Part shown: piece after piece, positions 10,539 to 63,898 of the stretch
Numbering within the stretch: the stretch's first letter is position 1
Layout of the letters: every line of letters starts with the position of its first letter
Origin: Branchinecta lynchi
Taxonomy: Eukaryota > Arthropoda > Branchiopoda > Anostraca > Branchinectidae
Length of the DNA: 64,000 nt
NCBI GenBank assembly: GCA_023053575.1
Contig: JAKZAP010000019.1
Coordinates: 3,410,001-3,474,000 of the forward strand
Reading direction: 5' to 3'
Translations under genes and position numbers: made by a program
The notes under the pieces: model-generated
What the model saw: only the letters and a program-made list of their open reading frames with translations
What the model was told of the DNA's origin: nothing
Databases searched by the model: none

Positions 10539-10895
10539 ATGTGTTGTTTTGAAATCAAGTTTACGACGCCCAAACTAGACTATTCTCACATCATCCACGT
10601 CCTTGAATCCTTATCACACACAGGCGATAACAGATATGCGTGGCACAATCCGGGAAAGTTCAGGATTGTTTTTAAATATGTTGAGAAAAACAACCCTCCA
10701 AACCTTTTTTCACGTCAGCCCACACATAGCACGTCACTTGTTATCACTAGCGGAACTTACAGTAGGTTAATTACGGTTTCAAACACCTTTCGCGGTCCAA
10801 GGTCCGACTATATCAGACAACAAAATCAATGGATTCAGCGGGATCACGAAAGGGGGGATAATTTGGACGACAGATATTCCTACAGCCCTAGCTGA
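10539..10895 (+). CDS. Hypothetical ORF, 118 codons
   Basis: MCCFEIKFTTPKLDYSHII... with GDNRYAWHNPGKFRIVFKYV and IRQQNQWIQRDHERGDNLDD. Composition looks protein-like, but no family is recognised and the last residues run into the ribozyme element at 10894. Could be a transposon-derived piece. Confidence 0.2.
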   Translation: MCCFEIKFTTPKLDYSHIIHVLESLSHTGDNRYAWHNPGKFRIVFKYVEKNNPPNLFSRQPTHSTSLVITSGTYSRLITVSNTFRGPRSDYIRQQNQWIQRDHERGDNLDDRYSYSPS

Positions 10896-10947
10896 CTGCG
10901 AATCATATTTGACGATGCAAAACGAATAAGTAAGCTACATTTTATTA

Positions 10948-10991
10948 GAGCTATATTTCGGCCCATCTTGGCAAGGGTCCTCTTCAGGCTC
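10948..10991 (-). ncRNA. Hammerhead ribozyme motif, second subfamily, intact
   Basis: Minus strand: GAGC, core CUGAAGA (complement of 10981-10987), stem II GG(A)CCCUU/..GGGCC, GAAA, UAUA with cleavage after A, then GCUC pairing perfectly with GAGC. Sequence differs from the 21.6, 44.7 and 45.3 kb set but the fold is the same. Confidence 0.6.
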
Positions 10992-11153
10992 AAGCTGGAA
11001 ATGAAATTCGTTTTCATCGTCAAATATGATTCGCAGTCAGCTTGGGCTGAAGGAATATCTATCACCGAAGTACGAAACTTTCAAATCGCCCATACATGCC
11101 GCAAAAGAAGAAGAAGCGACAGGTGTTTTGTTTTTAAGTTCATTTTCCAGCTT

Positions 11154-11197
11154 GAACCTGAAGAGGACCCTTGCCAAGAAGGGACGAAATATAGCTC
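11154..11197 (+). ncRNA. Hammerhead ribozyme motif, decayed partner
   Basis: Core CTGAAGA 11158-11164 and GAAA 11186-11189 remain, but stem I is GAAC against GCTC and stem II ends GGGAC, so two pairs are lost. Inverted partner of 10948-10991. Confidence 0.45.
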
Positions 11198-11245
11198 TAA
11201 TGAAATGTAGCTGACTTATTCGTTTTGCATCGGCAAATATAATTT

Positions 11246-12252
11246 GGACGATACTGTGCCCAGATGTTCGTCGAACTTCTGATCCATTAAATAGATTTAT
11301 TACGTATATAGATTTGACTTGTTTCCGCATCCCCAAGCTTCCCTATATTAACTCTAAATTCGACTTTAGTCCCCCCCCCCCCTAACACTTAGTTCCCCCA
11401 ATTTCTGGCTTTCGCCGGATTCCGGTGAGCATCTCGAACCTCATCTGTACGAAGACACAAGGGTCCTTACGCAGAGTACGACCCAAGTATCTCATCTCAT
11501 TGCTAGCGTGATCGTGCTTACAGAAATACGGACGGTCAACTGAACGATGCCATGTCGAGCCAACGCACGACAGGATTACCTTTCGCTTTGAAGTGCGATT
11601 TAAGGTAATTTAAGGTAATAGTTATCCCCTCACTGACGTATGGGATGGCCAATAATACACTTCTTGACGTGTTGTTTCCTATCACATCTGATAACCATAG
11701 CATCATAACCCTAATATCTCCTAGTCCATGGATAACTCCCGTGACCCAAACATCCTAACATAACGTTTCCACAGCTAGTCGAAAGATAAAACAAGAGTAA
11801 CAACCTCTAAAGTCAATGGTTGTGCACCGACTAAGATGTTGCAGATATGCTGTTTACACAAATTTACTTGTTCGATATGTTTACCACCCGGTAATTTAAG
11901 AGGTTGGAGCTTCGCCCCCTCATTCGTCACCTTGCGAGTGTGTAAAAACCTACCACCACTATTTACGAAAAAGGTACATATGCAAGGAATACCCATTCTC
12001 ATGAATCGTTTCGTCCCTTGGCATGAGTTAACTTGAATTCCTCGCGCATTGTTGCCAGATTGCGATCCAAGAAATACTTACATATAACATATAATGGCTT
12101 TCAAAAATACGCCAGACAGTTTTAATACGCCGGAAAGTGCAATGGTCGTAACGAGAATTTTTCTTACTCTCAATATCGACTCAGGGTACATTCTTGATAT
12201 GTCAGCTAGCTCCCCGAGTCAAGTTTGAGTCAAGTTTTCTGTTCCTTTAAGT
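11246..12252. other. Stretch with no recognised gene
   Basis: Poly-C at about 11371. The words ATTTAAGGTAATTTAAGGTAA (two units) at 11601-11621 resemble the end of the LINE copy near 25168, so part may be old LINE sequence. Confidence 0.35.
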
Positions 12253-20100: not shown

Positions 20101-23100
20101 CGAGACAAACATTGTGGGTTTAGAAATTGTTAGTAAAGCTAAGGTGTGGTCTGCGCACACCAAGGAAACAATGGAGGCTGCATGATTTTTTTCCTATGTT
20201 CAGGATATTAAGTTATGAAAGCCAGCGGTGGTGAACGGCTGAAGGAGTTTAAGTAGGGACGTTCTCTATCGCTAGTGCTGCTAGTATCGCTGCTATTCTA
20301 GTTTGTGTCGTTTTTTTCAAGTTTTGGCACTACTTCTTAAGGCCTTTTTAAGCGACACAAATGTGGGCCACACACTTTTGAGTGTTTGTCGCGGAAACAC
20401 GATTGTTTGCGCCACAGTCGAGCCACTAGTTGAAACTCGCGGAAACGCTGCTTTGTCTATTTTTTTTGGCAGTAATTTCAAATCGCTGAAAACAAAAAGA
20501 AAATTCATGTAAAATCTCTGTAAAGACAACTCCAGACTTATTTCCTTACCATTCTGTACATCAAACATTCCCAGTTTTAAGTCTATTTGTTGCTTAATTT
20601 GAATTTCCCGCAAGAATCGAGCCACAAAATCGACAATCACCCCGCCAGTTGTTTATCGAATTTGAGCCACAAAGCGAGCCAGGAAAATCTTGTTGGTTGC
20701 GGAAACACACCTGTGGGCCGCACGAAAGACCACGGAAACACTCTTTTCGAGCCACAGTCGACCCACAAACTGTTTGTGGGAGCACCGGAAAACGCCTCTA
20801 GTCTTATTTTGCTCTGGCCTTAACATTAATATTTTCTGCTTCAAACGCTAGATGTCGCCTTTCAGCAATTCAAGTCTTATTTCTTATAGCAAGCGGACTA
20901 CCGTCACCCGTGGCGGGGGCAACCCCCTGAGGTATATACTCGCATTTAGACCTTTGTCAGACCTAAACCTGACTACGGCAATGGTAGTTGCGGTAAAAAA
21001 AAAAATCCGAAACAACAAAAAAAGTTTCCCGCGTCAGGATTTCGCGGCTGGCCACGAATTCTTATTTGGATTTGAATATGCCGCCAAATTTCGAACTTCA
21101 AAACAAAAAATCTGCTCGAGCGTGCTCCACCCTACTTACCGTAGTTACTCAAGTTCTAGATCGTGTTCTTTTTATTAACAAACTTAAATATACACAACTA
21201 AAATAATACTAACATAGACAAACAACAAAATCTATTTACTAAGCAAAATCCCAAGGGTTGGGAAACAACGCATGACATCACGAATTTTGGATTCTTGCAG
21301 TCAAGGCTGGAACTCATTTCTATATTTAGGTACAATATCACTCCACGATGTAATCCAGCCAATCACGTCACAAAGAACCGTAGTTACCACGCTTACTACG
21401 CTCCCGAGCATGGTAGGCAAATCGTCACTATTTCGATAAGGTTGGAACGGTCAGCGGTCACCTTTCGTTACGGAACGGAAATAGTAACTAATAGTTACTA
21501 TTGTTAGAAGGGTGGAACACGCTCCTCGAGAGTTGTTTTTCAAATCTGAGGTAAATATTCTTTGAGCCCAAGCTGACTTTGAAACATTTATTCAAACAAT
21601 GTTTACAACGGATACGTCAGCTATGATTCTTCTTCAGCGATATTTCGGCCCTTCTTGGCAAGGGTCCTCGTCAGGCTGTCAATCCTCTGGTTCGTTTGTT
21701 TCCTTCCCCGAAGTTGAACCAGAGGATTGACATCCTGACGAGGACCCTTGCCAAGAAGGGCCGAAATATCGCTGACGAAGAATCATAGCTGACGTATCCG
21801 TTGTAAACATTGTTTGAATAAATCTGAGGTAAAGTGCGAGCTCGGTAATTGGTTACAGAAACATAATTGTGGGCTGCAAAACGATCGCCAAAACATTGTT
21901 TTCGAGCCACAAAACAGGAAAAAACGCCCTATTTGAGGGATTCCAAGCAGAGAAAAGAAAATGAAAGAATAACCATAATTACTAGTATGTATCCCCACGG
22001 TCTGATCCTCTAGACGCCTTAACCAAAGGTGTTCAGTTGGCATGGCCTCTAACAACCTTTAACTTACCATCATTATTCTGATCTATTGAGGAAAAGACTA
22101 GCTTCAAATTCTTCTCATGTTCCTTCAAGTAGACTACGAATTCAGCCATTGTCAAGTCCCCACTTTTGTCCTTGTCCGATTTCTGCATGAATCTCTGAAG
22201 AAAAAAAAATTACTCCTAAGGACACAATAAATTTATATACAAAGACATATAATTATTCCACTAGGGGCGATTCGAGGGGGGACTGACTCACCCTCTCTAT
22301 GCCTCATAGGGTAGTACCCTCAGCCGCATGTTTTGAGGTTGACAAAATGAATTTCGTATGTTCTGGGGTCATCAGTATGTCAGTCGTGTGCTTCGAGCTT
22401 GTCAAAATAATGTAATATAGGTTGCGTTCCTCAAGTTAACAAATTGTTAACAGTTGTTACCTTTTTGCGTTTCCCGTTTCTGATTTCGAAATTTAAGCTC
22501 CGCCCACCTATAATTTCCGTTCCAGAGCTCAAAGATTGTTAACGATTTTGTAACGATGGTCGGTGAGCATCGTTACAACTGGGAAAAGTTAACGATCGTA
22601 AAACTGCAGTTAGCTCAGACCGGAAGAAAAGTTGTTACGTTTGGGGAACGCAACCATAATCTTTAGTTTCCTTAATAGCTCGTACAAATCACTCGCTAGA
22701 ATGTAATAATAAATAAATAAATAATAAATAAACGTTCCCCCCAAAAAAATTGCAACCGGCACCTTTCGTATTCTGCTCTATTCAGTGGACGGGCGCGTTA
22801 TTTAGTTAGGGCGGTAGGCGTGGGACTGTGGGGTTTGAGCCGCCTCAAAACCCAGAATATTATGGAAAGTGTCGGTAGTCGATTTTTGCCAGAAAAAAGG
22901 CTAACTAAAAAATGTTTGCATTCAGCACTAAATACAACTACGTCTTGGGCACGGTCGTTAGGAGCTGCTGGGGCTTGGCTGTCTCCAGCGAAGGCTGAAC
23001 CGACGGTTCGATTTGTTTTGCGTGCCTTATAGCCTAAAAAACAGTGTTAATTTTTCTTTAAATTCGTAAAAATTTGGGCCTTGCCGGCCATAAGCCAGTT

Positions 23101-31739: not shown

Positions 31740-33010
31740 TCACCTACAACCACGAACATTTGGTCATAGGTATTATTGTAACTTTATTTGAAATCATAGG
31801 AATGCTGGGCGAGAATAAAATAAATGTCTGTGCCGAACAGAAACGCGTAACTTCGGCGATGAGTTCCAGCTTCCAGTAGTCCAGGCTAGGCTCGACAAAA
31901 GAATAATTAAGAAGTACCCAAGAAGTACCGAAATATCGCTCGGACAAAGTTCAGTTGACGTATCCGTTTGTCACTATCAACAGATGATTCACAGTCAGTT
32001 TGGGCTGAATGAATATTTAGGTGTAGACTGATCGGCCATTGAAGGAAAGAAAACCTACGGAGGAAGGGCTCCTCTAAAAAGATACAGCAAATTTAATATT
32101 AAAAAAGTATAATTACTCTGGAAACAATCCTCATGCAAATTCTAGTAAAAATAATCCGTGATTTTTTTACGATTTAATTAGAATTTATAGCATGGTTACA
32201 AAATAATTGTTTTATTTTGAAATATTTGATTATTAAATATTTTTCTAGTTTTCAGAGTTTCTAGTTTTCACTTGTGTCTGGTGAAATTATTTGTCATATG
32301 CAGTGATTTGGTTGGAGTTTGAATTCTTGTGAGTGGTTCTGATGATTTGCGGATCTGCGGACAGGAGAGAAAGTATTTACAAAGATTAACGAAAAGAAGA
32401 ATTATAAGTAGAAACGATTAAAGAATCTTTTGGAAGGTAACTGAAATTTACAGAATAGTTTAAAGTTTGTATGAGTATTTTGTTTTTGAAATATTTGGTG
32501 ATGTTCAAGACTTTAAGGAAATATTATGGTCGTCGAATGAAAATATTAAATCGAGTGGAGCCCATTGTCGTAGCCGAAAGAAAAAAAATGTATAAGAAAA
32601 GATGCTATGCGAGCTTCAAAAGAATAAAATAAAAAAATAATAAAAAAGGAAGAACCTAAACGTAGATAACCGTGTCAGAACATTCCTCGTGAAGTGATAC
32701 TTGACTTCCCCATTTGTATACGCCTATGAGATGCCGCCTCTAAACTATTATAAGCCCAGTCTGTTTGAGCCTATTCCCTCCCCCACAGAATCAGGAGTCA
32801 AGCGTAACTAGCGTAAGGTTGCTCATATGAAAAGTACAGGAGTAGTGGGTGAGAATAAAAAAAATCAGTGCCGAACCGAAACGCTTAACTTCGGTGACGA
32901 GTTCCAGCTTCCAGGCCAGGCCTCGGGCCAGGCTCGATGAAAGAATAATTAACAATACAACTATTCGGAAAAGGCAGGAGAAAATTAAGTAGAATAGCGA
33001 AATATCAGTA
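31740..33010 (+). repeat. Composite repeat block W, copy 1
   Basis: Segments ACTGATCGGCCATTGAA, CATATGCAGTGATTTGGTTG and CATTGTCGTAGCC occur in the same order at about 39237-39745. GAACCGAAACGCTTAACTTC..GATGAGTTCCAGC occurs at 31835, 32874 and 39853. No coding frame. Confidence 0.55.
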
Positions 33011-33628: not shown

Positions 33629-36600
33629 GGACTACTGGAGGACTTGTCACTGTGGCTTGAAGGTAAGCTAGAGACCCTTTTTATTGAAATTGAAAATAAA
33701 AATGATAACAATGTTATTGTTGGGATTATATATTGTTGGGACTACTGGAGGACTTGTCACTGTGGCTTGAAGGTAAGCTAGAGACCCTTTTTATTGAAAT
33801 TGAAAATAAAAATGATAACAATGTTATTGTTGGGATTATATATAAAGTACCGTCATTTTGTGAAAATGAGTTTTTGGAAGAAATGGAGAAAATTATGGAA
33901 AAGCTTCAGAATGAAAAAAAGCATAAGATACTAATGGGAGACTTTAATATTGATCTTTTGAAGAATGAAAGCCGATTGAATTTTCTTAACTGTATGATTG
34001 GTTATTTTCAATATCCATTGGTAACAATACCAACTCGGATAACAGACCGGAGTGCGACATTAATCGACAATATTTTTGTTGATGGTGAGCTGGTTAACCG
34101 TGCGTCTGCTGACGTTGTTTTGACGGATGGATCTGATCACCTATTCCTTGTTTCTAAAATCATTTTAAAAGTAGGAAATAAAGGTAAAATAAAAAGATGT
34201 TTTCGAGATATGAATGAAAAAAATTTACAGAATTTTGCGAAAAAATTTGGTGAAGCTGACCTAAGAAATGTGTTCGATGAAGATAACCCGTCTCTTGCAT
34301 ATGATATTTTTGCAAAAACATTTTTAGAGATATTGGATAACACTTGCCCTATAAAAAGATTAAAAAATAAAAACCATAGTTTTCCTCGTAAACCGTGGAT
34401 CACAAAATGTATTTTAAATTCAATACGTCAAAAAAACAAATTGTATAAAATTTACCTTGCAGACCCTTCGGATTTTAATTTACGGCAATTTAAAGAATAT
34501 AGAAATGCTTTAAACAAAATAAAAAGAAACGCATTAAAACTTTTTTATTCTAGTGAATTTGAGAAAAATAAAGCTAATATGAAAAAAACTTGGAAAACAA
34601 TTAATTCTCTAATTGGACGTAAATCTAAGAGTGAAGTAGTGACTAAACTCAAAACACAGAATGGGGATCTGACAGACCCATTGGAAATTGCTAATCATTT
34701 GTGTGATTATTTTACGAATGAAGGTGCTAAGCTGTGTGAAAAGGCTCGTGAAAGACTAAGCGATCCCCCAAACCGTGTACAGCAGGAGGCAGATGTTACA
34801 ACGACATTTGAGTTTCATGAGTGTTGTGAAGTGGAGGTAGCAAAAATTGTGAGTGATATGAAATCTAATTCCAGTGGTTTGGATGGTATACCATTAAAGG
34901 CTGTAAAAGTAGTGAAGACAAATGTGGTCCCAGTATTGTGCCATCTGATTAATAAATCAATGAAAAAAGGTGTTTTTCCCGAGGCATTAAAAATAGCGAA
35001 GTTAATTCCATTGCATAAAAGCGGAAAAAAAGATGAACCGACTAATAAAAGACCAATTTCTATTCTTCCTTTTTTTTCAAAAGTATATGAGAAAGTTGTT
35101 TGCTCTAGGTTAAGTAAATATATAGAAAGTAACCAAATCCTAATTAATACCCAATTTGGATTCAGAAAAGGGTTATCCACAGAGCTTGCAACAATTAAGC
35201 TAGTTGATTGGATTAATTCAGCATTTGAGTCGGGTCTTATCCCTGCTGCATTATTTCTGGATCTGAAAAAAGCGTTTGATACGATTGACCACCAAAAGTT
35301 ACTTTTTGAATTACAAAGAATTGGTGTAACTGGTGTAAGCCTTAAGTGGTTTGAGTCTTATCTGTCTGAGCGTAAGCAAGTTGTGTCGAATGGCTCAGTG
35401 TTGTCTCATCCACTTCCGGTGAAGTGCGGCGTACCCCAGGGATCCATCCTAGGCCCATTGTTGTTTTTAATATTCATCGACCGAATAAAGCTGTATCTGT
35501 CACAGGCTGGAATTATTCTATTTGCAGATGATAGCTTATTGCTTGTGGCAGCCCCATCGACTGAACTTCTATTTTGTAAAATGGAAACAGCACTACTGGA
35601 GTTTGTCCAGTGGGCCGATTATAATCTTCTTACTTTAAATTATGATAAAACAAATTATATAATATTTTCGAGGATAGGTACCGTTGATACAAATCTGTCG
35701 CTGAATGTACATGGAAATAAAATCAATAGAGTTCGGGAAACGAAATATTTAGGGTTTATCATAGATGAGAATTTATCATGGAAGGAGCACGCTAATACCA
35801 TTTCACTTAAAATATCAAGATCCCTGGGCGTGCTTCGCCGCATTAAACATTTAGTGACCGAAAAAACTATGAAAACAATTTATTTCGCTATATTTTATCC
35901 ATACGTGTGCTATGGTTGCTCACTATGGGCAAGTAACTTTATTACGTGTTATAAAAGAATTCAGAAAATACAAAATAAAGCAATAAAACTTCTTTTTCAC
36001 AATGATGTTAATAATTCGACACCTTCTGAAATTTTCTTTAAAAATAAACTCTTTGATGTTTCAAAAACAAGGGATTATCAAATTAGCATTTTTGTTTACA
36101 AATACTTTAATAATTTACTGCCTTCCTCTTTTGCAAATTTTTTTTCTACGAATAGTGATTACCACAATTATGAAACAAGGGGGTGTGGGGATATAGTTCA
36201 TGAAATCCGGCAAACAACTCGTGCATCGTTCATTATTAGAAATTTTGCTACGAGTGTTTGGAATTCAATCCCAATTAAAGTCCGTGAGGCCCCGCACCTT
36301 GCTGCATTCAAAGCCACAGTGAAAAGGTTCTTCCTCACAAAAGAGTAAGCAAGAGTCAGTCGCTTTCTTTTTTTTTTTTTTTTTTCTTCTTTTTTTGTTT
36401 GTTTAGTATTTGGTTTAGTAATTAGTAATTAGAAATGTATTGTTAGTAGTAGTATTTATTTTTCAGTAGTAGTAGGATTTATTCTTCATTAGTAAATAGA
36501 TGTGAATTTTGTTTTTCGCCTGTTAATTAACAAGTCCCCCGGGACTTTCCCTGCAGGTGATGCAGACAAATGTTACGCGTTGGTTTTATATTAAACATAA

Positions 36601-38376: not shown

Positions 38377-38540
38377 ATACTTACCTGGCTGGGGAGCTGC
38401 CTTGATCAATAAGGAGGCGCTCCCAGGGCGAGGCCCTTCCATTGCACCTCGGTTGGGTTGACCCCTGCGATTGCCCCAAATGGGGGCAACTCGACAGTAT
38501 AATTTTTGGTAGTGTGGGACTGCGTTCGCGCGGTCCCTCG
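38377..38540 (+). ncRNA. RNU1: U1 spliceosomal snRNA
   Basis: 164 nt starting with ATACTTACCTGG, the 5' splice-site-pairing end of U1. Stem-loop I is closed by GGGAGC/GCTCCC. Stem-loop II keeps the U1A-type loop CCATTGCACCTCGG. Stem-loop III is a perfect TTGCCCC/GGGGCAA hairpin. The Sm site AATTTTTGG precedes a terminal GGGACTGCG-TTCG-CGCGGTCCC hairpin, as in arthropod U1. U1 pairs with 5' splice sites in the U1 snRNP. One oddity: loop I reads GATCAATAAGG where human and fly U1 have GATCACGAAGG, so U1-70K binding may be altered. The stems are intact, which argues against an old pseudogene. No upstream PSE was assigned. Confidence 0.9.
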
Positions 38541-39114: not shown

Positions 39115-40010
39115 ACAAACGGAAATTTCGCCCTTCTTGCCAAGGGTCCACTTCAGGCTCAAGCTCGGAAGTAAAGTTCAGTTCCCAGCTCTAGCGGTTA
39201 GAGCATGAAGAATGACCGAATAAAGTTCAGCTGGCGTATCCGTTTGTCACTTTCAAATATGATTCGCGGTCAGCTTGGGCTGAAAGGATGTTTAGGTAGA
39301 GACTGATCGGCCATTGAAAGAAAGGAAACCTACAGAGGAAGGGCCACTCTAAAAAGGAACAGTAAATTTAAATATTAAAATTTAAAGTACCCAGGAAGAA
39401 TCCTCTTAAAAATTATAGTACAAAAAATGCAGATTCTTTTAATTAGAATTTATAAGATATATTGTAAAATAAATACTGTAGTTTTAAATATTTGATTATT
39501 AAATATTTTTCTAGTTGTCTTGGTTTTATGCCTGGTGGAGTTATTTTTCATATGTAGTGATTTGGTTGGGGCTGGAATTCTTGTGAGTGGTTTTGGTTAT
39601 TTGGGGAATGCGTTTGACATTTTGCGTATGAATATTTTGTTTTTGAAAGAGTTGGTGGTGTTCAAGAGTTTAATGAAATATTACGCGCGGTCACCGAGTG
39701 GAAACATTATACCGAGCGGATCCCATTGTCGTAGCCCAATGAAAAACCCAGTTTCTTGAAAGCCATTCCCTCCTCGACAGAATCAAGAAGTCAAGCTTAA
39801 GGTTGTTCATTTGAAAAGTATAAGAATAGAGAATAAAATAAACTTCTTTGCCGAACACAAACGCATAACTTCGGTGATGAGTTCCAGCCTCCAGGCCAGG
39901 CTAGACAAAAGAATAATTAAGAATACAGCTATTCATTAAAATCAGGAGAAAATTAAGTAGAATAGCGAAATATCACGAGAAAATCGGTAGATCAGGAGAC
40001 TAAAAAAAAA
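39115..40010 (+). repeat. Composite repeat block W, copy 2
   Basis: Starts with a decayed subfamily E ribozyme region (39119-39172, core changed to CUGAAGU). It then runs parallel to 31985-33010. Confidence 0.55.
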
Positions 40011-40056
40011 ATCAGTAGGAGCCATCCTTGGGGTTGCTCTCTCTCCGCCACCGGTG

Positions 40057-40222
40057 TACACCTCGACACGGCACCGGCACGGCACCGCGGCACCGGCACG
40101 GCACCGCGGCAACGGCACGGCACCGCGGCACCGGCACGGCACCACGGCAACGGCGCAACACCGCGGCACCAGCTCGGCACCAGCTCGGCACCGGCACGGC
40201 ACCGCACGGCACCGGCGCGCCT
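40057..40222. repeat. CGGCAC(C)-type GC-rich tandem array
   Basis: Units of about 10-20 bp (GGCACCGCGGCACCGGCAC). Apparent Arg/Cys/Ala-rich frames are read-through of the array. Confidence 0.85.
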
Positions 40223-40404
40223 CTAGCACGATACGCCGGCCACGGACAAATTTTCTGCAGATTACTCTTCGCCATCTGGTATCTGGTATCTGGCGCCCAA
40301 TAACGAAGGTACTTGAATGAAAGAATTATTGAAAACATGCAACCGAAGAAGAAGCTGAACTAGATATGAGGAGATGCTGTTGACCAAATGCGCAAAGTGG
40401 TCAA

Positions 40405-41868: not shown

Positions 41869-42252
41869 GTTTGAGCAAAATATACAACTACGTGATCCCC
41901 ATGAGCCCATAGTCACTTTTGCCTAAAGGGTTTTGCTTTCACATGAATTTCTAGTGCCCTTAAAGTGCAAAAATAAAATACTTTTCACCAGATCATTCTC
42001 TTGATTTCCAAGGGCCCACAATCATTCTTATTTCAAGGGTATGGCTTATAATTAAACACAAGAAACCCAAGAATTTACAAATTCCTAAATTTCATCCTCT
42101 GACCCAGCCTTGCAAGTACCATATGAGCTGCTAGCTCTTGTATTCAACACACATTGCCGACTTCATTCTCGGCCAATATCTGATGAAATTTGTTTACATG
42201 TACATCAGAAATCGTGCTTTATCACAATACTGTAATTTGAAGTAAAAAAAAC

Positions 42253-42440
42253 CGCGGCACCGGCTTGGCACCGGCACGGCACCGGCTCGGCACCGGCACG
42301 GCACCGCGGCACCGGCACGACACCGCGGCACCGGCACGGCACCGCGGCACCGGCTCGGCACCGGCACGGCACCGCGGCACCGGCTCGGCACCGCGGCACC
42401 GGCTCGGCACCGGCACGGCACCGGCTCGGCACCGCGGCAC
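42253..42440. repeat. CGGCAC(C)-type GC-rich tandem array, second copy
   Basis: Same unit, in the duplicated segment 41280-42490. The corresponding place in copy 1 (about 1082-1110) holds only a few units. Confidence 0.85.
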
Positions 42441-42652
42441 GCGCAACTTGGTGTACATCGTTTTTGGGAGTGAGCAACCCTTCGGAGCCATCAAAGAAAC
42501 GTAGATCTCCTGATAAATCAGGGGAAGTAGAAGCACTGCTCGTAATAATAGCCGTTTTTAAAATTCAGTTTTCCTAACGTCGTTCTCCGATACTGACTTT
42601 TCAAATATCTATATTTTCGATAGTTGCACTACGATATTCGAAAGCTCTATCA

Positions 42653-43868: not shown

Positions 43869-44367
43869 TTAAAGGACCTGTCTTACCTATAGCAATAACA
43901 CAATCTACTTCCGCATTTCGTAGATAAATATTCTTTGAGCCCAAGCTGACTTTGAAACATTGTTTGAATAAACAATCTACTTCCATAATCACTTCATATT
44001 TTCTACACCCAGAGACCCCCATTTCGTACGGTTCATTCAACCCCCTCCAACAGAACCACGCTAATTTTCTCACTTGCCGTGTCTTGCTACCTTCGATGTG
44101 TATCACGCTGTCGACAGTTGTCTGCGAGAAGTTTTTCCATGAGAAAAACCGGCTGTAAATTGATTCCGTGTTTTCGCTGTAAGTTAACGGGCCTCGGAGA
44201 TCTGTTAAAAGTAACGTTTTCGCTGTAAGTTAACGGGCCTCGGAGATCTGATAAAAGTAACAGCCAAAACCGTGGATTATTTGTTGAAAGCACAGCCTAG
44301 TTTTAAAGTATTCAAATATTTTAAACTGCTGTAAGTTGAACAGTAAATAGTGCGAGGGGTCCTTTAA
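43869..44367 (+). mobile_element. TTAA MITE family A, copy 3, with a nested insertion
   Basis: TTAAAGGACCTGTC at the left and GGGGTCCTTTAA at the right. Interrupted at 43913-43984 by a minimal subfamily D element plus its target duplication; it also contains a tandem repeat of about 55 bp near 44160-44265. Confidence 0.65.
43900..43984. mobile_element. Minimal subfamily D copy (59 bp) with 13-bp target duplication
   Basis: ACAATCTACTTCC at 43900-43912 and 43972-43984 flanks just the two element ends; both ribozyme arms are deleted. It sits inside the TTAA MITE 43869-44367, so it inserted later. Confidence 0.65.
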
Positions 44368-44544: not shown

Positions 44545-44815
44545 TTCAACTTTAAATATTCTTTGAGCCCAAGCTGACTTTGAAACATTTATTCAATCAA
44601 TGCTTACAACGGATACGTCAGCTACGATTCTTCGTCAGCGATATCTCGGCCCTTCTTGGCAAGGGTCCTCGTCAGGCTGTCAATCCTCTGGTTCAACTTT
44701 GGGGAAGGAAATGATTACAGGTTTGTTTCCTTCCCCGAAGTTGAACCAGAGGATTGACAGCCTGACGAGAACCCTTGCCAAGAAGGGCCGAAATATCGCT
44801 GACGAAGAATCGTCG
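44545..44815. mobile_element. Palindromic ribozyme element (subfamily D), right end truncated
   Basis: Same left end and inverted arms as the 21.5 kb copy; stops inside the right arm after the ribozyme 3' strand, so no target duplication is visible. Confidence 0.65.
44752..44811 (+). ncRNA. Hammerhead ribozyme motif, stem II weakened
   Basis: Core CTGACGA 44762-44768 and GAAA 44790-44793 are intact. Stem II begins GA instead of GG, breaking its second pair. The inverted partner at 44626-44685 has GAGA in place of GAAA, a core change expected to abolish cleavage. Confidence 0.5.
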
Positions 44816-45207
44816 TTCTACTAAAAACCTCTTATAGGAGAATGGGATAGAGAACGGGTTGTTTACAAAAAACGCGGCTAATAATCATCATGTTGCCGTT
44901 GAGAAGAAGCTAAATATCTGCTACAATATTTTTCTGACAAGTTGCTAAATCTGCAAGCAGTTCTTCCAATCGGGAGCGGGACTCTCCCAAATTAAGTAGG
45001 TCCCTCTTAAAAATAAGTATTTAGTAGGTAGAAGCTAGTATGAAATGTGGAAGAAAAATAAGTAGGTTCATTCAAAAAGGTAGAAGGGCACATTCCAAAG
45101 GCAATCTTGTGACCTTGTTTAAAGTCTCTTATGAATAAATATTCTTTGAGCCCAAGCTGACTTTGAAACATTTATTCAAACAATGTTTACACGGATACGT
45201 CAGCTCT

Positions 45208-45267
45208 GATTTTTCATCAGCGATATTTCGGCCCTTCTTGGCAAGGGTCCTCGTCAGGCTGTCAATC
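45208..45267 (-). ncRNA. Hammerhead ribozyme motif (type I), intact
   Basis: Minus strand: stem I GAUU and CAGC, core CUGACGA (complement of 45251-45257), stem II of 7 pairs with a bulged A, GAAA, then UAUC whose A-U-A-U stem III is self-complementary. Cleavage would follow the C, before GCUG, which closes stem I with CAGC; AAUC pairs with GAUU. A stem III this short normally works as a dimer. Confidence 0.65.
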
Positions 45268-45302
45268 TTCTTGTTCAACTTCGGGGAAGGAAACAAACCG
45301 AA

Positions 45303-45362
45303 GATTGACAGCCTGACGAGGACCCTTGCCAAGAAGGGCCGAAATATCGCTGATGAAAAATC
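45303..45362 (+). ncRNA. Hammerhead ribozyme motif (type I), intact
   Basis: Stem I: GATT 45303-45306 with AATC 45359-45362, and CAGC 45309-45312 with GCTG 45349-45352. Core CTGACGA 45313-45319. Stem II 45320-45340: seven pairs, bulged A at 45322, loop GCCAAG. GAAA 45341-45344. Palindromic stem III then C at 45348 as cleavage base. It is the inverted partner of the motif at 45208-45267. Confidence 0.65.
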
Positions 45363-45479
45363 AGAGCTGACGTATCCGTGTAAACATTGTTTGAATAAAT
45401 CTCTTATGAAGTCCGCTGTGTCGAATATGCTTGTCCGGTTTGGCACTTTGCTCTTACCCAAGGTGAAACTGATACAATA

Positions 45480-46325: not shown

Positions 46326-46512
46326 CATGAGATGTGAAAAAAAAAAAAAAAATTACAGGTTGTGATTATTACAGGTTTGTTTCCTTCCCCGAAGTTGAAC
46401 CAGAGGATTGACAGCCTGACGAGGACCCTTGCCAAGAAGGGCCGAAATATCGCTGATGAAGGATCATAGCTGACGTATCCGTTGTAAACATTGTTTGAAT
46501 ACATGAGATGTG
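46326..46512. mobile_element. Single-arm subfamily D element with 11-bp target duplication
   Basis: CATGAGATGTG at 46326-46336 and 46502-46512. The left end is a run of about 18 A, followed by one arm with an intact hammerhead motif. Seen from the minus strand it ends in poly-T. Confidence 0.65.
46406..46465 (+). ncRNA. Hammerhead ribozyme motif (type I), intact
   Basis: Same layout as 45303-45362: core CTGACGA 46416-46422, GAAA 46444-46447, cleavage C at 46451. The outer stem I is GATT with GATC (one G-U pair). It is the only copy here without an inverted partner; its element starts with a run of A. Confidence 0.6.
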
Positions 46513-59106: not shown

Positions 59107-59459
59107 CAACCTATAAGTAAAGCCATAAAAGTGTCGACTATCGCGATAAATTCGAACCTCGTTCCTACGATGGAGAACACACGTCAGGCTAATTAAGACA
59201 ACCCACAAATGCCTGATTTTCTATTGCCTACGCCAGTCGGTGGCGTCTACCAAATGCCGATGCACCGTGATCCCGCCGTCGCCACTATGAAATAAATTTA
59301 ACTGGGTATTTAGTTAGTTTCCCAGACATCTTGGAATATTTGTGCGGTGAAGATGCCCATCATTTGACATACGGTAGCCGTCGTTCAGCACATTCTTCTA
59401 TGCCAAAATGCCGACATCTTGCATAGTCTATAAACAAAACAAAAAATATGTCAGTTATC

Positions 59460-59660
59460 TTTGACGGTGCAAAACGGATAAGTCAGCTACATTTTATTAG
59501 AGCTATATTTCGGCCCTTCTTGGCAAGGATCCTTTTCACGCTCAAGAGTGCTTTTTAAGAAGGCTTTGAGCCTGAAGAGGACCCTTGCCAAGAAGGGCCG
59601 AAATGTAATGTAGCTGACTTGTCCGTTTTGCACCGTCAAATATGATTCGCAGTAGGCTTC
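59460..59660. mobile_element. Subfamily E palindromic element, copy 2, ribozymes decayed
   Basis: Inverted arms begin GGTGCAAAACGGATAAGTCA. The minus-strand motif has GUGAAAA for CUGAAGA. The plus-strand motif keeps CTGAAGA and GAAA but has lost the bases after the cleavage site. Confidence 0.55.
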
Positions 59661-60224: not shown

Positions 60225-60609
60225 CACTGTCAGAAGTTTCATAACAGATAAGCGTATAACACTTTCAAGAATAACACCTTTTCACTTAGAAATAAAGTGT
60301 TATGACCAATTAAGTTTACACTATTTCGTGCCTAGATCTCCAGCAACACCTTCAATTGGTAAAAATACTAACGGGAACGAAAGAAACTTAACAGATAACA
60401 TCCCAAAGTGTTATCTGTTGAAACCGCGCATCCTTCTGTTGTCGTTATGTAACTTGTGACAGTGTAGTATTTTTACTTATTGAAGGTGTTGTTGGAGATC
60501 TAGGCATTAAAGAGTATAAACCTATTTGGTCATAACACTTTATTTCTAAGTGAAAAGGTGTTATTCTTGAAAGTGTTATTCGCAATCTGTTATGAAACTT
60601 CTGACAGTG
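60225..60609. mobile_element. Long foldback with CACTGTCAG ends
   Basis: CACTGTCAGAAGTTTCATAA at 60225 and the inverse at 60590-60609; arms of about 150 bp containing ATAACACTTTATTTCTAAGT. Confidence 0.7.
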
Positions 60610-63563: not shown

Positions 63564-63814
63564 TTACAGTATAGCGGAATGATAGGCAGAAAGTATGACG
63601 GCTCAAACTGAAGACTTAGACCGATAAGTGATTTTTGTATTTTTGTTCTTTAGCTGTTTGTGATTTCTCATGCATAAATATACTTTTTGCTGTTCTCGTA
63701 TTTTTTAAACGGGGCCCACGGAAGAATTGTGTTGGTTCCTTTGATGAAGGAATAGATCTGGGAATCAGAGGCGTTACTAGTCAAATTTTTTTTTGGGGGG
63801 ACAAGGTATTTACC

Positions 63815-63898
63815 ATTTATTCAAACAATGTTTACAACGGAGACGTCAGCTACGATTCTTCATCAGCGATATTTCGGCCCTTCTTGGCAAGGGTCCCA
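63815..63898 (-). mobile_element. Subfamily D fragment
   Basis: Right-arm sequence from TATTCAAACAATG to AAGGGTCC; cut before the CUGA core, so no complete ribozyme. Confidence 0.5.

Follow-up and report, generated by a model that had tools for sequence, protein, structure and literature searches.

A Penelope insert typically consists of an open reading frame (ORF) between two pLTRs, together with an adjacent inverted pLTR (PMC3846280). In the cases quoted from Adineta vaga, target site duplications (TSDs) measure 8 to 10 bp, a 31-bp tail is optional on one inverted pLTR, and the pLTR reaches 12 codons into the ORF, or 22 with the tail; the 2013 paper that describes these inserts proposed self-priming (PMC3846280). 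Work on an anole Penelope-like element (PLE) found that its protein cuts both strands of the target and extends them, that reverse transcription begins within the RNA at two neighboring sites that bound the tail, and that these start sites are alike on both strands in vitro; the same 2024 paper describes further integration steps as yet to be validated (PMC11167929). Minimal type I hammerheads, with almost no helix III and a suggested cleavage as dimers, occur in the pLTRs of PLEs and Terminons (PMC7761336), as opposed to the canonical hammerheads of retrozymes (PMC7761336, PMC7229834). An inverted-pLTR layout with tail, TSD, and hammerhead is thus already known for PLEs; in the insertions described here, the ORF is missing.

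Hammerhead-bearing insertions in Branchinecta lynchi

We analyzed a stretch of 64,000 nucleotides from Branchinecta lynchi (contig JAKZAP010000019.1, positions 3,410,001 to 3,474,000; here called the window), in which we describe 10 insertions (Table 1). The flanking repeats of 14, 11, 11, and 13 bp that a first-pass annotation of this DNA had claimed for copies I to IV are all present and exact. An edge repeat of at least 11 nt (11 to 14 bp) was found in five of the eight insertions tested (I, II, III, IV, and VII), compared with 51 of 3,000 random flank pairs; the test left aside C1 and C2, and its edges were chosen after viewing the sequence. Copies V, VI, and VIII gave no TSD in this test. 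The annotation had also described two inverted hammerhead motifs in each full copy, which holds for copies I and II; copy III has one arm with one hammerhead, and copy IV has both ends, almost no arms, and no hammerhead. Copy V is a two-armed insertion absent from the earlier list. TSD-flanked copies with a single arm are represented by copy III and by two loci elsewhere in the assembly, L122:8688 (12 bp) and L141:1972 (7 bp). In copy III, a run of about 16 A residues (46337-46352) separates the TSD from the element's 5′ end; this single case could reflect a template jump to a poly(A) tail.

Table 1. Insertions of the hammerhead-arm families and their parts (positions in the window unless a locus is named)
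Feature	Position	Strand	Description
Copy I	21542-21833	.	TSD AAATCTGAGGTAAA, exact 14-bp repeat (21542-21555/21820-21833); inverted arms 108 nt, 98% identity (21586-21693/21716-21823)
Copy I left arm	21552-21693	-	Outer tail; hammerhead 21634-21674 (-)
Copy I right arm	21694-21823	+	Inner end; hammerhead 21735-21775 (+)
Copy II	45125-45410	.	TSD TCTCTTATGAA, exact 11-bp repeat (45125-45135/45400-45410); inverted arms 101 nt, 100% identity (45170-45270/45300-45400)
Copy II left arm	45136-45299	-	Outer tail
Copy II right arm	45300-45400	+	Inner end
Copy II left-arm hammerhead core	45217-45257	-	Intact
Copy II right-arm hammerhead core	45313-45353	+	Intact
Copy II tail	45136-45171	-	ATG + 11 codons, MFQSQLGLKEYL
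Copy III	46326-46512	+	Single sense arm; hammerhead 46416-46456; inner end; TSD CATGAGATGTG, exact 11-bp repeat (46326-46336/46502-46512)
Copy IV	43900-43984	.	Tail joined to ~15-nt sense arm; TSD ACAATCTACTTCC, exact 13-bp repeat (43900-43912/43972-43984)
Copy V	44553-44813	.	TSD not found; inverted arms 88 nt, 97% identity (44624-44711/44726-44813)
Copy V left arm	44553-44711	-	Outer tail; hammerhead 44635-44675 (-)
Copy V right arm	44712-44811	+	Cut short; hammerhead 44762-44802 (+)
Copy VI	63814-63896	-	Single antisense arm; inner end; cut in stem II; TSD not found
Copy VII (subfamily E)	10858-11251	.	TSD ATAATTTGGACGA
Copy VII antisense arm	10868-11003	-	Outer tail
Copy VII sense piece	from 11006	+	Passes through tail into open frame (MIRSQLGLKEYLSPKYETFKSPIHAAKEEEATGVLF...)
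Copy VII second sense hammerhead arm	11144-11244	+	Inner end
Copy VIII (subfamily E)	59457-59659	.	Antisense arm 59457-59546; sense arm 59566-59658; TSD not found
Copy C1	31798-33058	+	Tail at 31984; direct repeat 31798-31913/32838-32955
Copy C2	39122-40026	+	Inverted hammerhead arm 39130-39170 (-); long body in common with C1
Copy C2 sense pLTR part and tail	39218-39289	+	Sense pLTR part with tail
5′-end palindromes	L123:6570-6625, L149:4355-4380		13 bp and 10 bp

The motif of subfamily D combines the core CUGACGA and GAAA with a palindromic AUAU before the cleavage C, a stem I of CAGC/GCUG, and a stem II of GG-A-CCCUU/AAGGG-CC; the bulged A of stem II, the AUAU, and stem I are as the first-pass annotation described them. 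The conserved core (CUGANGA, GAAA, and NUH) and the three stems of a type I hammerhead open at stem I are present, stem III only as a dimer. We read the D motif as a minimal type I hammerhead and a candidate ribozyme, probably active. In the related subfamily E, stem I is GAGC/GCUC and positions N7 and H17 are both A; the stem I change is compensatory, and the two in the core are allowed. Defects in stem I occur in other E copies. The 41-nt core occurs seven times in the window at up to three mismatches, a general hammerhead pattern matches six times, and neither was found in 100 shuffles. By reading, 4 of the 11 motifs in the window are free of defects in the core, inner stem I, and stem II (21674 and 45257 on the minus strand; 45313 and 46416 on the plus strand). 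The Rfam hammerhead families, named earlier as a check, gave no match at the gathering threshold, none at E values up to 5 over the window, and none at E values up to 10 over positions 45270 to 45410. Rfam type I hammerhead models expect a longer stem III, and no model in Rfam is known to us that covers motifs this small. Exact scans of viral and prokaryote contigs produced no match. A loose hammerhead scan of viral contigs was set aside, as the hits among the matches listed were chance-like.

The first-pass annotation had placed the paired ribozymes tail to tail and called such pairing unusual for ribozymes that act as dimers. They are instead head to head, with their 5′ sides facing, which is the known inverted-pLTR layout, and each ribozyme would be buried in a hairpin formed in cis. 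The palindromic AUAU of stem III would need a dimer, as expected if two inverted ribozymes formed a functional unit whose pairing is under selection. Each strand of an inverted copy, however, carries one sense ribozyme, and the minimum-energy fold of a copy II transcript with both arms is a hairpin of about 100 bp at −200.4 kcal/mol (one arm alone folds at −19.4 kcal/mol), so the inverted pair should not act as a catalytic dimer in cis. Since the junction and the arm length also vary, we consider selection for the pairing extremely unlikely. Transcripts across 44624-44813 and 45170-45400 would form near-perfect hairpins of 88 to 101 bp and are possible Dicer substrates. Matches to miRNA families at 44666-44771, with scores under gathering, are attributable to the hairpin.

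Copies C1 and C2 make up family C, which has the same tail as the other copies and, behind it, a long body, 76 to 82% alike between the two, with gaps that break the reading frame. C1 is an older and longer relative with a noncoding look, and family C is a second, older family, probably a longer non-autonomous Penelope relative. The window also holds a full-length U1 spliceosomal RNA gene (38377-38540; 158 bits) and an 879-amino-acid open frame (33709-36348) that belongs to a non-LTR retrotransposon, as its relatives have PF00078 and endonuclease domains (best identity, 55%). At the start of this frame, 105 bp are exactly duplicated (33629-33733/33739-33843). Short-unit repeats of the CGTGCC/GGCACG type at 40012-40325 and 42205-42577 are open in several frames on both strands. 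An inverted repeat with arms of about 34 nt and a long loop (60337-60498) has a mir-559 score under gathering, and blast showed no kinship between it and the hammerhead-arm family.

Relationship to Penelope-like elements and retrozymes

Three features of Penelope insertions were found: inverted and direct pLTRs (the inverted arms and the direct repeats of C1), a tail of 30 to 40 bp at the 3′ end of one arm, and TSDs of variable length (in the five window insertions noted above). Inverted pLTRs, a one-sided tail, TSDs, two end positions, and a hammerhead within the pLTR together support a Penelope-like identity, at the level of sequence. The coding trace of a Penelope-like ORF is limited to a short conserved N-terminal stub. 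A rough motif scan of 354 kb, the window plus 290 kb of the same assembly (ORFs of at least 60 amino acids), found no Penelope reverse transcriptase (RT) or GIY-YIG frame with these ends, and a padded N-terminal search of public protein clusters returned one candidate, with none at an E value of 10 or below.

With the endonuclease-containing Penelope elements of A. vaga, the copies share head-to-head inverted pLTRs, a one-sided tail (31 bp in A. vaga), TSDs, and 5′-truncated copies, but here the inner end lies at the likely ATG and the tail consists of the first 12 codons (PMC3846280). In the A. vaga inserts described in that paper, the junctions are palindromic and an ORF or captured DNA is present (PMC3846280), whereas the D copies consist of pLTR only, the four junctions tested are nonpalindromic, and no RT ORF was seen. 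With Poseidon PAc of Anolis carolinensis, the copies share a hammerhead at the pLTR-ORF junction, and their two end positions resemble the two RT start sites of PAc (PMC11167929). The PAc ORF begins at stem II and RT starts 111 to 118 bp into it (PMC11167929), whereas here the likely ATG lies about 50 nt past the cleavage site and the ends fall at the ATG and about 34 nt beyond it. For PLEs and Terminons, the motifs are described as tandem (Cervera and de la Peña 2014; Lünse 2017; both as reviewed in PMC7761336), in contrast to the inverted pairs in short copies seen here.

The first-pass annotation had left the choice between a Penelope-like and a retrozyme-type parasite; structure supports the former. 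Metazoan non-LTR retrozymes, self-cleaved and circularized RNAs that are retrotransposed, likewise combine a type I hammerhead with a short, mostly noncoding repeat; coral retrozymes coexist with minimal PLE-like hammerheads, and retrozyme TSDs, if any, are longer than 4 bp (PMC7229834). Published retrozymes, however, are tandem repeats of 150 to 450 bp with mostly canonical hammerheads and circular RNA (PMC7229834). The D copies have no tandem unit, being inverted or single, and they run through the cleavage site into the likely ORF start. For these reasons, the retrozyme reading is unsupported, and we hold a retrozyme origin to be highly unlikely.

Two end positions and the likely start of the ORF

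Arms were mapped in 32 regions, comprising the 10 window insertions and 22 of 23 loci from 290 kb of the same assembly (the omitted locus, L122:703, is a 29-nt match), and end positions were numbered from the A of the tail ATG. The 42 readable 3′ ends fall into an inner group at −3 to +6 (n = 20, including L149:4158 right and one L139:7374 arm) and an outer group at +28 to +47 (n = 18), about 34 nt apart, with four ends between them at +11 to +20. Four of the 42 were placed by eye (both ends of copy IV, L141:1337 left, and L149:4158 right), the aligner having overrun, the arm having been missed, or the query having ended. The +35 position of D copies coincides with the end of the D query, yet eight D-type tails diverge directly after it. 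The count excludes ends truncated inside the pLTR (V right, L136:1212 right, C2 left, and L122:5212), inner pieces (L130:8240, L131, L139:7374, L142, and copy VII), the C1 and C2 bodies, and weak pieces next to L147 and C1.

The tail between the inner and outer ends consists of an ATG and 11 codons, and the peptide M[FIV]xSQLGLKEYL is encoded exactly in 9 of 16 tails found by pattern. Across the 11 codons of these 16 tails, two, two, and five sites vary at codon positions 1, 2, and 3, respectively, a weak coding signal; one tail contains a stop codon. The tail of copy IV is 12 nt longer than the others (MFQSQLGLKEYLSTKC, beside MIRSQLGLKEYLSPKY in E). The ATG at the inner end is likely the start of the ORF. 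An alternative frame that passes through the hammerhead (TRTLAKKGRNIADE...), modeled on PAc as a Penelope start, was dropped because by reading it contains stops in copies I and III, whereas the frame opened by the inner-end ATG is partly conserved. At their other end, the D arms examined by eye stop by about −150 (copy III reaches furthest; L123 and V reach about −135), which suggests that the template had its 5′ end there and would not have been a tandem transcript.

Both ends could be read in 12 two-armed copies, and 9 of these have exactly one outer end, while none has two. An outer end is paired with an inner end in seven copies (I, II, IV, VII, L130:8240, L131, and L141:1337) and with a partner at +11 or +20 in two (L130:2123 and L142); the remaining three (VIII, L138, and L149:4158) have no outer end. 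Extra or broken arms make L130:8240, L131, and L142 irregular members of this set, and V, L136:1212, C2, and the complex L139:7374 were unscored. When the same ends were paired at random, no outer-outer pair arose in 8.6% of draws; for D copies alone, all five pairs are mixed, as in 12.7% of random pairings. A rule of one tail per insertion is suggestive only.

Junctions, paired arms, and the origin of the inverted layout

No two of the six two-armed D copies (I, II, IV, V, L130:8240, and L141:1337) have the arm-arm junction at the same position; the junction of IV and the far side of V were read by eye. Spread of the inverted unit as a hairpin, in the manner of a foldback or MITE-like non-autonomous element, would be compatible with the several similar copies of about 280 bp with TSDs, but such spread does not predict a different junction in every copy, TSD-bearing copies with a single arm, or TSD lengths that vary from 11 to 14 bp. 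Neither the fixed TSD length nor the shared internal structure of DNA transposons and MITEs was found.

Comparisons between arms bear on the same question. In copy II, the two arms match at all 101 nt and have in common four changes, one of them a deletion, that occur in no other aligned arm, which speaks against hairpin spread. Elsewhere, the kinship is looser: four of the eight arms tested have their sister as the closest arm, and the differences within copies I (2/108), V (3/86), and L141:1337 (4/60) lie within the range of between-copy divergence (0.8 to 10%; median, 5.8%; 85 comparisons). The arms of these three copies are not clearly closer to each other than to arms of other copies, as expected if the two arms were inherited separately within a hairpin unit. 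At L141:1337-1524, neither arm is nearest to the other, so either the insertion is old or two distinct source RNAs were copied; more generally, unlike paired arms could reflect age or templates from two source loci or RNAs. On rechecking, the statement that paired arms are always closest to each other proved clear in copy II alone, and the argument for one template is weakened accordingly. On balance, we judge hairpin spread very unlikely, since the junctions differ and TSD-flanked single-arm copies exist, and we prefer priming from both target strands.

Self-priming, the published reading of the palindromes at A. vaga inverted junctions (PMC3846280), would have one strand prime the cDNA, or an antisense RNA fold back, so that the first arm is copied into the inverted arm. 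The four D junctions tested among the six two-armed copies (I, II, V, and L141:1337) hold palindromes of just 2 to 3 bp, which is the chance level (null mode, 3). Nor would copying the first arm by itself be expected to pair an outer with an inner end, as seen in 7 of the 12 two-armed copies. The single-arm copies L149:4369 and L123:6604 do have palindromes of 10 and 13 bp at their 5′ ends, compared with 10 of 4,000 random places with a palindrome of at least 10 bp, and fold-back thus seems to occur in this family. We regard self-priming as a possible but rather unlikely origin of the two-armed copies and favor priming from both strands because the tested junction palindromes are at chance level.

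The arms, their two end positions, the duplications, and the differing junctions can be read from the DNA itself, and we think it probable, if far from certain, that the elements are Penelope-like RNA insertions and that the two-armed ones were primed from both target strands. Each short insertion would be a copy of the RNA of a Penelope-like retroelement, and a D-type RNA would start about 130 to 150 nt upstream of the start codon and contain the minimal hammerhead followed by the ORF. We infer that a Penelope-type protein cuts the two target strands about 11 to 14 bp apart and that, in two-armed copies, both target 3′ ends then prime reverse transcription on one or two such RNAs. One end would prime at the inner site, at the ATG, and the other would usually prime at the outer site, about 34 nt deeper in, which accounts for the tail. 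The growing cDNAs would converge, halt at different points, and be joined end to end, and gap filling would yield the target duplication. Priming from one target end only would give a single-arm copy. A more specific version, in which each target strand has its own RT start site and a pair of RNAs joined by the palindromic stem III supplies both templates, we consider quite unlikely; if it were true, the main role of the ribozyme would be less to cleave than to act as an RNA dimer linkage in two-ended integration. We did not meet a two-ended origin of inverted pLTRs in the literature searched, which covered few subscription papers, and we make no claim of priority.

Overall, the elements are largely explained as Penelope-like insertions of ordinary layout, useful for one unsettled mechanistic step. 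How Penelope integration is finished, with its frequent inverted terminal repeats, is the debated step on which these copies bear, as ORF-free copies with an intact TSD display the starts of both arms and the join between them within a single short stretch. Collected across the genome, such copies would make two-ended priming and self-priming directly testable against each other.
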